64,000 nt of DNA from Methanosarcinaceae archaeon (GCA_020055655.1 JAIPUR010000011.1:1-64000), one strand, 5' to 3'; shown: positions 13,391 through 56,066, numbered from the stretch's first letter. The notes: generated from the letters alone by a model not told the origin. Made by a program: numbers and translations.

Positions 13391-14416
13391 TCATAGTTTA
13401 TACCTTCTGGAAAGATATATCTGTTTTAGTACATCTTCTGGTGGATGTTTTTCGATACGAATATCTGCATTTGAGTATAATGTTGGAATGTTCAGGTCAA
13501 TATCCTTGATAATAAGATTTGCAAGGTTCTGATCCCCTCCAATTACCAAATAATCAAATTCCTGTCCTGGATCAGTGATAATATCCCGGAGAGACTCACG
13601 GACCTTCTCTGCATGATGAACGATCTCCTCATCCCGCAGACGCTCGAAACGTCTCTGACTGAAACCTCCTTTTCCATGTTTGGATTTCACATTGCTTCGG
13701 GTAAGATCATGGGAATCCATGTGTTGAGAATCCAGAGAATAGCCCACAAATGACTCACCTGCATGGGCTACTAAAATACAAACGGATAATTCATTTGATA
13801 TTATACTGGATAATTGCTCTGTATTAAAGTTTGACCCCATGTTCCATTTGGACAGTTCAACAGGTAAAGGAGGAATTATGACCTCATTTATTAGATTCTC
13901 ACGGTCATAAAAAAGTACAAAACCATTTTGTGATTCGATCTTTTCTAAAAGGTACAGAGTATTTGCATCAATATAACGGTCCACAGCTTCGTTGGCAAAA
14001 ATACCTGAAATAGAAGCCCCATTGCGAACATACAATGTCAGGAATCTTGCATCTGGAGATCTAATTGAAGACAGAGTTGAAATATAAGCTTGCATTCTGC
14101 CAAGAGAGAGATTATCCACGTAATGGAAAGATAACTGGTCAGAGCATTTCTCTTTGCTTTTTTCAAGTTCATGCTCAAGTGTATTAATACGAGATTCAAA
14201 TGATTTAAGGGATTCTTCTGCATTTTGCTTTGCAGCCACTGCCTTTTTCTCATTTGCAGCAGAGCGTTCCAGTTTAGTGCGACATGCCTTAAGGTCGAGC
14301 TCCAGCTCGACCATATGTGACTGGAATTTATTGACCTGCTCTTCGAGCTTCTCTTTACCAGTATATTTGTTGAATAGAAAACTTACATTTTCAACAACTT
14401 TTTCCTTTTTGACCAT
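13391..14416 (-). CDS. Vms1/Ankzf1-type (VLRF1 domain) peptidyl-tRNA hydrolase-like factor
   Basis: Member of the eRF1-related VLRF1 group, whose eukaryotic members Vms1/ANKZF1 release nascent chains from stalled 60S-tRNA complexes. Residues about 20-95 form a coiled coil rich in Lys and Glu; the domain from about 105 onward has an RNase H-like beginning and the signature HGKGGFSQRRFERLR, in which Gln254 corresponds to the catalytic Gln of the loop. The C-terminal FDYLVIGGDQNLANLII resembles eRF1 domain 2/3 architecture. 341 residues. First gene of a minus-strand operon whose downstream members are an unknown protein and RlmE. Function assigned by family. Confidence 0.85.
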   Translation of the reverse strand: MVKKEKVVENVSFLFNKYTGKEKLEEQVNKFQSHMVELELDLKACRTKLERSAANEKKAVAAKQNAEESLKSFESRINTLEHELEKSKEKCSDQLSFHYVDNLSLGRMQAYISTLSSIRSPDARFLTLYVRNGASISGIFANEAVDRYIDANTLYLLEKIESQNGFVLFYDRENLINEVIIPPLPVELSKWNMGSNFNTEQLSSIISNELSVCILVAHAGESFVGYSLDSQHMDSHDLTRSNVKSKHGKGGFSQRRFERLRDEEIVHHAEKVRESLRDIITDPGQEFDYLVIGGDQNLANLIIKDIDLNIPTLYSNADIRIEKHPPEDVLKQIYLSRRYKL

Positions 14417-42762: not shown

Positions 42763-44460
42763 CTATCGAAGATTATCCACGAGTACTGCATCCAGCTCGA
42801 TAACGAAATTTGAACCTTTTGGAGAATTATCTTCTACCCATACCTTACCACCATATCGATCAATTGTTTTCCTGACAATAAACATGCCAAAGCCGGTATG
42901 ACCTGTTTCCCCATATTTGAAACCTTCATCAAAAACACGCGGTTTAACATCCTCTGGAATTCCAATCCCATCATCTGCAAATTCAATTCTACAAACATTA
43001 TCATCTTGCATAATACTAACATCTATTTGGCTGGATCTGCCATGGACTATAGCGTTGCTTATGATATTGTCAACAACAGAATTAAATGCTGCATCTGCCT
43101 TTATGAGACAGTCACCATTGACAGATGAAGATACATCATACTTTCCAAGCGAATTTAAGACAAGATCTTTAACATTAAAAAAATCAAGGTCTTCATTCGG
43201 CGATGTTGTCAAATCGAGATCATGCATGTTCCTTATTAGTGAAACACCTTTATCAGCAGCTTTTTTTGCCATGATGATAAATTGTACATCGTCAGAATTT
43301 GAATACATATCAAGTGCTGAGGTAACAATTTGCAAGCTATTGGCGATATCATGCCTCAAAATACGATTTGTAGTTCGAAGCATATCAGCAATTTCCACAT
43401 ACTTTTTCCTGGACTCTGATATCTCCTGGTAACGTCTGATACTTAATAATGTAAGACTGGATGCCTTTGCTATATCAAGAGCAATGCTAAGATATTCTTC
43501 CATATGCTCAGGATGGGCAATATCAGAAACCTCCACCATACCCAATAAACCATCCGTGGTAGAAATCTTTACACAAAAGCTATTTCCTTTATTGAAGGTT
43601 AAATAATTAGCATCAGAATTTCTGAACGAGTTAATTAATTCCTCACCCATAAAAGATGATTTATAAATATCATCAACATCCTCAACTAAAGAATGATACA
43701 ATACAGACTTAGGTGCGAACATTAGTTCATATAACTTACAAATGGAAGCTACTGCATCAGAAGTATTTGAAACATCCGCCATTTTTCTAATAAAATCAAG
43801 TGACATAGCATATGATGCTGCTTTCTTATTTGATTCTCTCAATAAAGATTGCTTTTTTTCAACACTCCAAAGCAAAATTATATTTTCAAGGGCCAATGAA
43901 AAATGATCCATATTGACATTTAGTATTTCAAATGGAAGGCCAGTGAACTTTGAAAACTCAGCCACTTTCCCATATACATCAACATAAAAGCCCGTATCCA
44001 CAACAAGAATTGAAGAATAATTTTGAGAAAAGAATGATTGTGGTTCCACACCATAAACACTAAAATCCAGAATATTTTCCCGCCAATTATCCACCCAGGA
44101 AGATAAGACGATAAAATCACATGCTTCTAAATTCTCTTTCAGAATATCAAAGCCAACAAACATCCCACAGACATTTTCAACTGTATGAATGCTCACAGAG
44201 CCTGTAAAATCATTTTTAAGCATTTGTTGAGGATAGGATCCTTCAAACAGAATCAAGATATCATTGTCACAATTCATTCCAGCTATAATTTCAGGGATCG
44301 TTTCGGAATTCGAGCTCATCGACGACTCAGAAGAATAAAATAAAGATTTTATGCCCTTAAATCGATCATCTCGGAAAACATACTCCACTTCACGTGTTAT
44401 GAATTCAGGCAAGAAAAAGTACATATCATATATCATTGGAACCTCAAAGATATTTTCCAA
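42763..44460 (-). CDS. DUF1638-GAF-histidine kinase, candidate corrinoid-linked sensor
   Basis: 565-residue soluble sensor kinase. Residues about 65-200 resemble DUF1638, a domain normally found as separate proteins beside methanol/methylamine methyltransferase genes (DNDILILFEGSYP, FIVLSSWVDNWRENIL, VVDTGFYVDVYGKVAEF). A GAF-like region spans about 215-355. The H-box is ILRHDIANSLQIV with His370, followed by N-box DNIISNAIVHG, G1 DDGIGIPED and G2 GFGMFIVRKTI. No transmembrane helix. Overlaps the end of the MtaA-like gene by 17 bases, so they are co-translated. No response regulator lies in the window. Confidence 0.85.
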   Translation of the reverse strand: MENIFEVPMIYDMYFFLPEFITREVEYVFRDDRFKGIKSLFYSSESSMSSNSETIPEIIAGMNCDNDILILFEGSYPQQMLKNDFTGSVSIHTVENVCGMFVGFDILKENLEACDFIVLSSWVDNWRENILDFSVYGVEPQSFFSQNYSSILVVDTGFYVDVYGKVAEFSKFTGLPFEILNVNMDHFSLALENIILLWSVEKKQSLLRESNKKAASYAMSLDFIRKMADVSNTSDAVASICKLYELMFAPKSVLYHSLVEDVDDIYKSSFMGEELINSFRNSDANYLTFNKGNSFCVKISTTDGLLGMVEVSDIAHPEHMEEYLSIALDIAKASSLTLLSIRRYQEISESRKKYVEIADMLRTTNRILRHDIANSLQIVTSALDMYSNSDDVQFIIMAKKAADKGVSLIRNMHDLDLTTSPNEDLDFFNVKDLVLNSLGKYDVSSSVNGDCLIKADAAFNSVVDNIISNAIVHGRSSQIDVSIMQDDNVCRIEFADDGIGIPEDVKPRVFDEGFKYGETGHTGFGMFIVRKTIDRYGGKVWVEDNSPKGSNFVIELDAVLVDNLR

Positions 44461-45475
44461 ATTTTCGAACTGAATTCGAAATACTCAGCAGTACATCCTC
44501 TGAAACCTGATAAGGAATTTCACCGTGGTTATCCGACATGATATAACCTCCGCCTTTTGCAGCTTTTTCTATGGCATCTTTGACTTTTGATTCAGCATCC
44601 TGTTGAGTCCAGCGTATCATCTCAATACCATTCAGATTTCCAAGAACAGACATCTTTCCAGCACATGCTGACTTAACTTCCGCCAGATCTTCCAGCACAC
44701 TGGTACAAACGACCGCTGATCCGGTTTCTGCAATATCATCAATAATAGGCAGACATCTTCCTGAAGCCATATGAGTTGCAACTGGTGCCTTTATCTCTGA
44801 AATAGTCTTTTGGGCAACTTTAAAACCGGTTTTCCTGTAAAGTTCAGGAGGGATTATAGTTGAAGAAGAAACAGGATCGAAATAGCAAATCACCGTTGCA
44901 CCGGCTTGCACTTGAAGGTTAGCCCACTGCACACTGAATTTTTTGTTGACCTTCATTAACTCGCTAAAAATGTCAGGCTCACCGTAGATCAGGTCAAGAT
45001 ATTCACCAAATCCCATTTGCATAACAGGAAGAGAGAACGGAGACATTACAACACCTACAATTGGAATATCCTCCCCAGCATGCTCTTTTAGTATCCTTGT
45101 AGTTTCAAGGACCATACCCATCCCGGAGGATTCAAGCACATCCGGTGCTTCTAGTGAGAGAACATCACCAAAATCATCAATAATTGGTCTGCCAGAATTT
45201 GGAGGGGCATTATCAAAATAAATAGACTCACTCCCCCACGCTTCAAGTTCCAGAGCAGCATAATAGAATGGATAAAGACAATCGTGTTTGTATTTTTGCT
45301 GCATAGACAACTGAGCATTAGCAACAAGTTCAGGTTTTGAAAAATATTCTTTAATTGACACATGGGACTCTTTGGCACCATAGATGGTCAACATATGGAA
45401 AAGTGGAACCCTATCAGGCTCTTTAAAGCTCAGAGCTGCAAGCACACGCTCCATTGAAGTCATTTCATCACTCAT
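44444..45475 (-). CDS. MtaA/uroporphyrinogen-decarboxylase-family methyltransferase-like protein
   Basis: 343-residue TIM-barrel protein of the UroD/MtaA family. True methylcobamide:CoM methyltransferases bind zinc through His-x-Cys and a later Cys. Here the first motif reads THMASGRCL (His235, Ala237 in place of Cys) and the later site reads SDNHGEIP (His317), so the usual zinc ligands are replaced. MERVLAALSFKEPDRVP and VLGNLNGIEM are family features. It overlaps the corrinoid protein gene (ATGA) and the kinase gene, forming one operon. A regulatory or altered catalytic role is inferred. Confidence 0.85.
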   Translation of the reverse strand: MSDEMTSMERVLAALSFKEPDRVPLFHMLTIYGAKESHVSIKEYFSKPELVANAQLSMQQKYKHDCLYPFYYAALELEAWGSESIYFDNAPPNSGRPIIDDFGDVLSLEAPDVLESSGMGMVLETTRILKEHAGEDIPIVGVVMSPFSLPVMQMGFGEYLDLIYGEPDIFSELMKVNKKFSVQWANLQVQAGATVICYFDPVSSSTIIPPELYRKTGFKVAQKTISEIKAPVATHMASGRCLPIIDDIAETGSAVVCTSVLEDLAEVKSACAGKMSVLGNLNGIEMIRWTQQDAESKVKDAIEKAAKGGGYIMSDNHGEIPYQVSEDVLLSISNSVRKFGKYL

Positions 45476-46113
45476 TCAACCACCCCCGTTAATTCATATA
45501 CTTTGGACAGTGCCTCTGTTGCATCAAGTGCCATGGCATCTGCACCCACTTGCTTCCATAACTCATCATCAAACAAAAACGGAGCACCACCTACTATGAT
45601 ATTGGTGCTGATTCCAGTTTCATTAAAACAATTTCGTAAACTTTTAACTTCATAAGCAAAGTTGAGCATCAGGGTTGAAACCAGCAAAACTTCAATAGCA
45701 TCTTTTACAACATTAGTAGCAAGCTCATCTACTGGTATTGCACCATAATCAAAAATACTAAATCCACTCGCCTTCAGACATGAAGCAACTATCTGTTTTC
45801 CAAGCATATGTTGGTCACCCAGGGTTGCAACACCCAGCACGGGCATATCCCTTCTTTTTGGACTTTCAGGCGGAAGAATCGAATTTACTATTTCTTCACA
45901 TATATTGCTGGCCATGTACTCCTGAGACAAAGCAATGCTACCGACTTCCCATTCCTTACCTATATTTTCAAGTGCAGGCATCATTATTTGCTGAATTAAC
46001 TGAAAAGCATTGTCTCCAGTAAATTCATCTTGTATCAGCCGTTTTGCAGCAACCTTGTTCAAAGAAAGCAAGTATTGTTTGAATTGTGAAGATAAAGTAG
46101 TATATAGAACCAT
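45472..46113 (-). CDS. Corrinoid (B12-binding) protein, MtaC-like, with cobalt-ligand His
   Basis: 213-residue two-domain corrinoid protein: a helical cap (residues about 1-88, with IMMPALENIGKEWEVGSIALSQEY) and a Rossmann B12-binding domain with LGDQHMLGKQ, matching DxHxxG; His102 would coordinate cobalt in the base-off form. Further motifs: LLVSTLMLNFAYEV and IIVGGAPFLFDDELW. Translation is coupled to the MtaA-like gene. Likely partner of that protein and the kinase. Confidence 0.9.
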   Translation of the reverse strand: MVLYTTLSSQFKQYLLSLNKVAAKRLIQDEFTGDNAFQLIQQIMMPALENIGKEWEVGSIALSQEYMASNICEEIVNSILPPESPKRRDMPVLGVATLGDQHMLGKQIVASCLKASGFSIFDYGAIPVDELATNVVKDAIEVLLVSTLMLNFAYEVKSLRNCFNETGISTNIIVGGAPFLFDDELWKQVGADAMALDATEALSKVYELTGVVE

Positions 46114-46306
46114 AAATTATACCCTTGATATATATAATAAATTTAAGCTGCTTCAATAAAAAGATAACTATTGAATAGCCATTAGAATCTGAATTTCTTG
46201 AATATTTATTAGATGTTTAAAATTAATAAACACTCAAATAAAAGTTCAATTAGATAAATTATTAAGAAGCTGAAGTATCTGGACAATGTACAACAATTTA
46301 CTATTA

Positions 46307-46945
46307 TTAGGATTCAATAATTACATCATAAACTCTGAACATTACTTCTGTTGCGTCAGCGGCCATTGAATCAGCACCTAATTTTTTCCACAGAGTATCA
46401 TCAAGTAAAAATGGAGCGCCACCAGCTATTATTTTAGTGCTGATACCTTCTTCGCTAAAACGATCCTTCAGATCTTTAACCTTATAAGCAAAATCAGGCA
46501 TTCTGGTTGAAGTCAGAACGATATCAATTCCATCCTCCTGCACTTTACTTACAACATCCTCCACAAGCATATTTCCGTAATCAAATATATTGAATCCAGC
46601 TGCTTTCATAAATGAGATTACAATTTGCTTACCAAGCAGGAACTCATCTCCCAGTGTTGTGATGGCCGACGTTGGCATAGCTTTTCTTTCAGGGCTTTGA
46701 AGAGGGAGTATTGAGTTTACAATTTCTTCACATGCATTGTTAGCCTTGAGTTCATGAGATAAAGGGATTGTACCATCTTTCCAGCTTAACTCTATGCTCC
46801 TGAGAGCAGGCATGATTATTTCGCGGATTAATTGAATAGCATTGTTTCCGGTAAACTCATTTTGTACCATTTTGTTTGCAGATTCTTTATCCATAGAAAG
46901 TAAGTGTTGCTCAAATTGTAAAGATAAAGCATTTTTTGTGACCAT
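46307..46945 (-). CDS. Corrinoid-protein paralogue lacking the cobalt-ligand His
   Basis: 212-residue paralogue of the protein encoded at 45472, closely similar throughout (QFEQHLLSMDKE, EFTGNNAIQLI, CEEIVNSILP, IAGGAPFLLDDTLW). The DxHxxG motif reads GDEFLLGKQ: Phe102 takes the place of the His that binds cobalt. The codon is TTC, two base changes from a His codon. Start placed at ATG 46945, which aligns with the paralogue's start and has GGGGGT upstream; ATG 46966 would add seven residues. A 193-base AT-rich gap separates the two genes. Confidence 0.88.
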   Translation of the reverse strand: MVTKNALSLQFEQHLLSMDKESANKMVQNEFTGNNAIQLIREIIMPALRSIELSWKDGTIPLSHELKANNACEEIVNSILPLQSPERKAMPTSAITTLGDEFLLGKQIVISFMKAAGFNIFDYGNMLVEDVVSKVQEDGIDIVLTSTRMPDFAYKVKDLKDRFSEEGISTKIIAGGAPFLLDDTLWKKLGADSMAADATEVMFRVYDVIIES

Positions 46946-47033
46946 TGTGTTATTTACCCCCGCCATTGATAGAAGATAAATTCGGAACTATTTCAATATA
47001 TAGATAACTACATTGACTCAATGTTAGATACTA

Positions 47034-53819: not shown

Positions 53820-56066
<2,247 letters not shown>

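Follow-up and report, generated by a model that had tools for sequence, protein, structure and literature searches.

A corrinoid protein, an MtaA-fold protein and a DUF1638-GAF kinase as a probable sensory module in methanogens and bacteria

Introduction

What is a histidine kinase doing beside a corrinoid protein and a relative of the coenzyme M (CoM) methyltransferase MtaA? The question is raised by four genes lying in one run on the minus strand, at 42763-46966 of a 64,000-nucleotide stretch of DNA (the window) from a Methanosarcinaceae archaeon (GCA_020055655.1, JAIPUR010000011.1:1-64000). In order of transcription they encode CorF, a corrinoid-protein paralogue lacking the cobalt-ligand His; CorH, a corrinoid (B12)-binding protein; an MtaA/UroD-fold protein, hereafter the MtaA-like protein; and a sensor histidine kinase. 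A sequence-only reading had taken all four for a corrinoid-linked signalling system in which the kinase reads out methyl-group or corrinoid status. The four genes are borne out as open reading frames (ORFs) in one run. We argue that the last three, here called the trio, form one sensory module working by the mechanism proposed below, with a probability of about 0.68, on the basis of their gene linkage, domains, motifs, output swapping, correlated divergence and predicted folds.

Conservation of the trio

The trio recurs in distant lineages. The MtaA-like family alignment, run against 84,980 species genomes, returned 264 relatives, of which the best 80 were analysed at the level of their loci; the query was the MtaA-like protein only, and the scan was hence blind to gene linkage. 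These 80 span Methanosarcinaceae, Methanomicrobiales and some ten bacterial phyla, among them Desulfobacterota, Nitrospirota, Chloroflexota, Pseudomonadota, Bacteroidota, Riflebacteria, Planctomycetota and Verrucomicrobiota. A corrinoid gene adjoins the MtaA-like gene in 80/80 loci, mostly directly upstream, the exceptions being a fusion in Brocadia (L129), a position on the downstream side in two Electrothrix species and a gene in pieces in L084. In 77/80 loci the next gene matches the window kinase over the latter's input region, and in the remaining three the contig ends shortly afterwards. Sequence distances, taken pairwise, correlate among the three trio proteins (r 0.71, 0.73 and 0.78), with none of 2000 permutations giving values as high. 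Because the trio order recurs across phyla, chance is excluded as the cause of the linkage. In the family tree, Methanomicrobiales members sit among bacteria, which suggests horizontal transfer of the trio; paralogues or binning errors are other possible causes. As a separate observation, the corrinoid and MtaA-like proteins of Candidatus Brocadia are encoded by one fused gene (L129:1285-2985), a natural hint of joint action.

The host is a Methanolobus-like archaeon, going by the names of its nearest relatives. Among 59 other genomes searched, 16 have an orthologue of the MtaA-like protein with 55-71% identity, 13 of them belonging to the same genus and three to other genera, and a second copy in the same genome shares 62% identity. 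Below the orthologues the E-value changes from 1e-128 to 1e-27 for the next matches. At every orthologue locus and at the second copy, the MtaA-like gene is flanked by a corrinoid gene immediately upstream and by a same-family kinase gene immediately downstream. Two relatives deviate in the kinase: in one (G002, L028:5518-7405) a short stop-containing insertion interrupts the gene between its DUF1638 and GAF parts, and in the other (G033) the N-terminal part is divergent. Apparent breaks like that of G002 were also seen in the kinase gene of L079, the MtaA-like gene of L117 and the corrinoid gene of L145. The conserved four-gene order that the sequence-only reading had asked to be checked thus holds for the last three genes and fails for the full set, CorF being present in no relative. 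A lack of conserved order in relatives had been named there as grounds for refutation, and the signalling idea withstood this check.

The second complete trio of the host genome lies on another contig (L021:5455-8833; G000 contig C15), and upstream of it are a FilR1-type regulator about 2.4 kb away (L021:2227-3033) and a DUF2254 membrane protein. Eight of the 13 same-genus relatives have another histidine kinase after the trio (L022:4478-5914, and the same position in L023-L026 and L030-L032); it is of the MASE3 membrane-sensor type in L022, where it was scanned, and is absent after the window copy.

The corrinoid proteins CorH and CorF

CorH (45472-46113, minus strand) was assigned from Pfam, NCBIfam and an alignment of 99 family sequences. 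It belongs to the corrinoid superfamily, having a B12-binding_2 cap, a B12-binding Rossmann domain and the DxHxxG motif with its cobalt-ligand His, here DQHMLG with His102 at 45808-45810; the cap carries the motif W55...LSQxYM. The cobalt-ligand His is kept in 98 of the 99 corrinoid sequences, the sole exception being CorF. The two-domain B12 fold and the DxHxxG motif are shared with the cognate corrinoid proteins MtbC, MttC, MtmC and MtaC; in contrast to these, CorH scores far under the family cut-offs (TIGR02370, 70.8 vs 215.3 bits) and has the W...LSQxYM cap instead of the F...LP type.

The closest solved match to CorH in a single-sequence search was 8j2y, a GGDEF-annotated structure with a B12-binding-type domain (E 1.5e-13). 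This match favours an alternative in which CorH carries adenosyl- or methylcobamide, light breaks the Co-C bond and this is signalled to the kinase or GGDEF protein. CarH-type and B12-GGDEF photoreceptors (5c8a, 8j2y) resemble the trio in using a corrinoid domain for signalling, in the GxxW cap and in that some outputs are GGDEF domains. Of the three elements in the published light signature (PMC11796333), CorH keeps GxxW and the lower-ligand His, whereas the third, EH, reads EY in the window protein and [V/E/I]-Tyr in the family, with Tyr66 in 96/99 sequences. Moreover, the corrinoid domain of the trio resides on a separate protein, and CarH-type sensors need no MtaA-fold partner, which is always present here; many carriers also appear to come from dark sediment or groundwater. 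A B12 photoreceptor is therefore quite improbable, and the simple CarH type was marked down for its lost EH signature.

CorF (46307-46966, minus strand; start ATG 46966 or 46945) has Pfam B12-binding and B12-binding_2 domains. The two corrinoid genes are distinguished as the sequence-only reading had described them: where CorH has DQHMLG, CorF has DEFLLG, with Phe in place of the His at 46640-46642. Its cap motif is also broken, Q-x-Y-M having become H-x-L-K. CorF is probably an apo paralogue, since both the cobalt His and the Q, Y and M of the cap are lost. It was not found in any relative, occurs only in this species and is an accessory, species-specific duplicate. Its inclusion in the signalling system, as first proposed, was accordingly dropped, and it was rejected as a part of the core.

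CorF lies 193 bp upstream of CorH, and a TATA-like stretch precedes each of the two genes. Bacterial promoter and terminator scans, which are not applicable to archaea, gave no excess over shuffled sequences. Three of the four genes had been thought to overlap; this is so for one pair, CorH and the MtaA-like gene, which share 4 bp. The kinase ORF is open to TTG 44460 and would overlap the MtaA-like gene, by 17 bp, only if that TTG were its start. ATG 44436 lies 7 nt past the preceding stop and is preceded by a GAGG ribosome-binding-like sequence, and its Met is invariant in 17/17 aligned orthologues. The kinase thus probably starts at ATG 44436, and the two genes therefore probably do not overlap.

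The MtaA-like protein

The MtaA-like gene (44444-45475, minus strand) encodes a member of the UroD fold (PF01208, E 5.8e-55), an assignment that also draws on alignment to MtaA-family proteins, on invariants among 98 sequences and on a structural model. The model (predicted local distance difference test, pLDDT, 93.5) is a UroD TIM-barrel that matches MtaA 4ay8 with a Z-score of 40.5 and a root-mean-square deviation (rmsd) of 2.3 over 333 positions. The protein shares this barrel, a corrinoid partner and the first zinc-ligand His with the methylcobamide:CoM methyltransferases MtaA, MtbA and CmuA (4ay7/4ay8). It differs from them in its active-site motif, its linkage to signalling genes, its scores below the MtaA and CmuA cut-offs (TIGR01463, 126.9 vs 235.4 bits; NF040654, 98.3 vs 400 bits) and its family, which forms a single clade apart from MtaA with full support.

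The zinc ligands are indeed altered, as noted from the sequence at the outset. In an alignment with two MtaA-family proteins of the same genome, the zinc motif HxC...C reads HMA...NHG: His235 (44771-44773) is kept, and the zinc Cys positions hold Ala237 (44765-44767) and His317 (44525-44527). The resulting HxA...H occurs in nearly all of the family (H235 in 96/98, A237 in 95/98 and H317 in 97/98 sequences), and a profile alignment places the second-position His at the LGHG region of true UroD. Such strict conservation points to a working site different from the CoM-thiol site of MtaA.

These features bear on the chemical version of our proposal, the one that the sequence-only reading had in mind, in which the MtaA-fold protein methylates CorH from a specific compound and the kinase reads methylated versus demethylated CorH. 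The MtaA fold and its pairing with a corrinoid protein favour such a methyl-donor sensor, as does the host, which is of a methylotrophic methanogen lineage and has eight DUF1638 matches in its genome. The loss of the zinc Cys ligands speaks against it, and many carriers, judged by their taxonomy, are not known users of methyl-corrinoid chemistry.

The DUF1638-GAF kinase

The kinase gene (42763-44436, minus strand) was assigned from Pfam, from DUF1638 matches of its orthologues and from a structural model. An alpha/beta DUF1638-like domain (43891-44436) comes first, then a GAF domain (43426-43848) flanked by long helices, the phospho-acceptor His370 in the H-box ILRHDIANSLQ (43351-43353) and a HATPase_c catalytic domain (42787-43083), all on the minus strand. 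The histidine-kinase end is complete, with PF02518 at E 3.4e-21 and with H370, D371 and N374 invariant in 17 orthologues. The window protein itself is borderline for DUF1638 (PF07796), scoring 26.5 bits in a protein scan, against a Pfam cut-off of 27 bits, and 28.9 bits in a genome search. Its orthologues score up to 41 bits, above the cut-off, and 47 of 64 archaeal and bacterial third-gene homologues match at E<=0.001. We take the domain to be real because the orthologues and most of the bacterial homologues pass, and the first description of this N-terminus therefore stands in spite of its own low score. Two of three Cys positions are lost in the window copy; most bacterial copies keep all three. 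Stand-alone DUF1638 proteins share the TP(G/M)W and DTG motifs with the window kinase, whereas here the domain is fused to GAF and a kinase or GGDEF domain.

The input region was modelled as an alpha/beta DUF1638 domain, then GAF with long helices (pLDDT 89.7). The GAF fold is evident from matches to 4y2f (Z 14.7, rmsd 2.8 over 131) and 3ibj (Z 15.3, rmsd 2.7 over 138), and the structures retrieved by Foldseek and VIA were GAF structures, thus bearing on the GAF part. A Pfam scan found no MEDS or PAS domain in the window kinase. MsmS and RdmS of Methanosarcina acetivorans are likewise methanogen sensor kinases; both are without an H-box, in contrast to the intact one here. Both proteins are haem/redox-linked, MsmS being a haem sensor with a connection to methyl-sulfide methyltransferases.

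The output of the third gene varies. Among 64 homologues, 39 have a HATPase domain, seven have GGDEF and several others are short, with the GAF part only; the third gene may thus have a histidine-kinase end, a GGDEF end or an input region standing alone.

What DUF1638 contributes may be gauged from bacterial genetics: in one bacterium, mutants of the domain group with B12-dependent methionine synthase and its reactivation (PMC5764234), and in bacteria the domain is tied to genes of B12-dependent methionine synthesis and reactivation (PMC12478193). Recognition of a corrinoid protein by DUF1638 fits these data and may involve direct binding. The same genetics place the domain with B12 methyl transfer and reactivation, a further point for a methyl-donor sensor.

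Signalling context

Outside Methanosarcinaceae, other kinases or response regulators lie directly beside the trio in 36 of 71 loci, and their frequency drops with distance. No kinase was found within about 1.5 kb of nine control loci (metabolic or other UroD-family genes), and no recurrent metabolic gene family was found beside bacterial trios. The conserved trio, the swapping of outputs between histidine kinase and GGDEF, and these neighbours together support the signalling part of the interpretation, as the sequence-only reading had supposed.

The same context weighs on the possibility that CorH and the MtaA-like protein form a catabolic pair for metabolic methyl transfer, with the kinase only regulating their expression. 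Kinase-free pairs of corrinoid and MtaA-like genes do occur in relatives (L018, L019 and L154), and the host genome has several MtaA paralogues, which is in keeping with such a role. A catabolic pair would not lead one to expect three-way linkage and correlated divergence across phyla, output swapping to GGDEF, or bacterial loci devoid of conserved metabolic neighbours, and a reactivase match is absent in many carriers. We regard this explanation as improbable.

Proposed mechanism and stimulus

The data support a dedicated corrinoid-based sensory module, as judged from sequence comparison, and its parts can be arranged in a candidate mechanism. CorH would carry a cobamide held by His102, and the MtaA-fold partner, with its rebuilt HxA...H site, would sit over the corrinoid as MtaA does. 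There it would set or sense the state of the corrinoid upper face, the likeliest means being either transfer of a methyl or other small group or the binding of a small molecule. The third protein may dock onto the CorH/MtaA-like pair through its DUF1638-GAF region in a physical complex, the state passing via the long helices to the histidine kinase. The kinase would then autophosphorylate His370 and signal to a putative response regulator, and in bacteria the same input would drive GGDEF domains or separately encoded kinases.

Three results count against this scheme. The first is that the DUF1638 part is absent in 16 of 74 third genes, in which the match runs from the GAF part onward only; DUF1638 was rejected on this ground as a universal reader or coupler. 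Stand-alone third proteins lack it (L094:8002-8781, L098:7896-8729 and L115:8040-8756), and therefore it is the GAF part that is universal, not DUF1638. These proteins have a tail of the type CxxCKKIRDDKGYWNQ...CxxC, a possible zinc domain. The second is that no cognate response regulator was identified in the window or beside the window kinase; in the host genome, 16 receiver domains score over the cut-off and ten regulators are of the FilR1 type. The third concerns reactivation. Of 25 carrier genomes, 14 have RACo_C_ter, the reductive reactivase domain; the other 11, several of which are incomplete bins, gave no match to a RamA/RACo-type reactivase. The standard methyl-transfer reading is weakened by this, and a conventional Co(I) methyl-transfer cycle in all carriers is not obviously supported; accidental Co(II) would lack the known repair route in the carriers without a match. 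A methyl-donor sensor proper is a tentative proposal, which we place somewhat below an even chance.

Reactivation would not be needed if CorH were a redox or oxygen sensor, its Co(I)/Co(II) state, possibly together with a metal in the HxA...H site, reporting redox potential and the MtaA-fold partner serving as a non-catalytic lid. Carriers such as Electrothrix, Beggiatoa relatives, magnetotactic lineages and Methylobacter have habitats at oxic-anoxic interfaces and would suit such a sensor, and MsmS and RdmS of methanogens have been treated as a sensor-kinase type of their own. A lid, however, would need neither an enzyme fold nor an active site so strictly conserved, and we consider this alternative unlikely, if less so than a photoreceptor or a catabolic pair. 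For the sensory module favoured here, a methyl donor is the most likely single stimulus, ahead of redox, ligand and light. The fullest form of the proposal comes near to even odds without reaching them: a horizontally spread input module of methanogens and about ten bacterial phyla, in which corrinoid and catalytically altered MtaA-fold proteins would turn methyl (or other upper-face) state into two-component or cyclic di-GMP signals by organometallic chemistry.

Novelty and significance

Full-text searches of open-licence papers and family libraries found no description of a system of corrinoid protein, MtaA-like protein and DUF1638 sensor, and the trio is likely new. Most of the known examples of B12-based sensing are light receptors, RNA switches and transcription factors. 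If the proposal is true, a corrinoid protein that acts with a methyltransferase-fold partner on kinases and diguanylate cyclases would offer cells a new means of sensing one-carbon compounds or redox state. The orphan domain DUF1638 would also gain a role, as would many proteins of sulfate reducers, cable bacteria, magnetotactic bacteria, methanotrophs and methanogens that are likely annotated as uroporphyrinogen decarboxylase. Cultured hosts of the trio include Methanolobus profundi, M. psychrotolerans and Desulfonema magnum, in which direct testing is possible.

Other genes of the window

Two genes elsewhere in the window, both on the minus strand, deserve mention. At 53820-56045 lies a full-length gene for an isocitrate dehydrogenase of the monomeric type (PF03971, 1298 bits), which is better known from bacteria. 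A VLRF1/bacterial-type archaeo-eukaryotic release factor-like protein (PF18859, E 1.9e-17) is encoded at 13391-14416, here in an archaeon.

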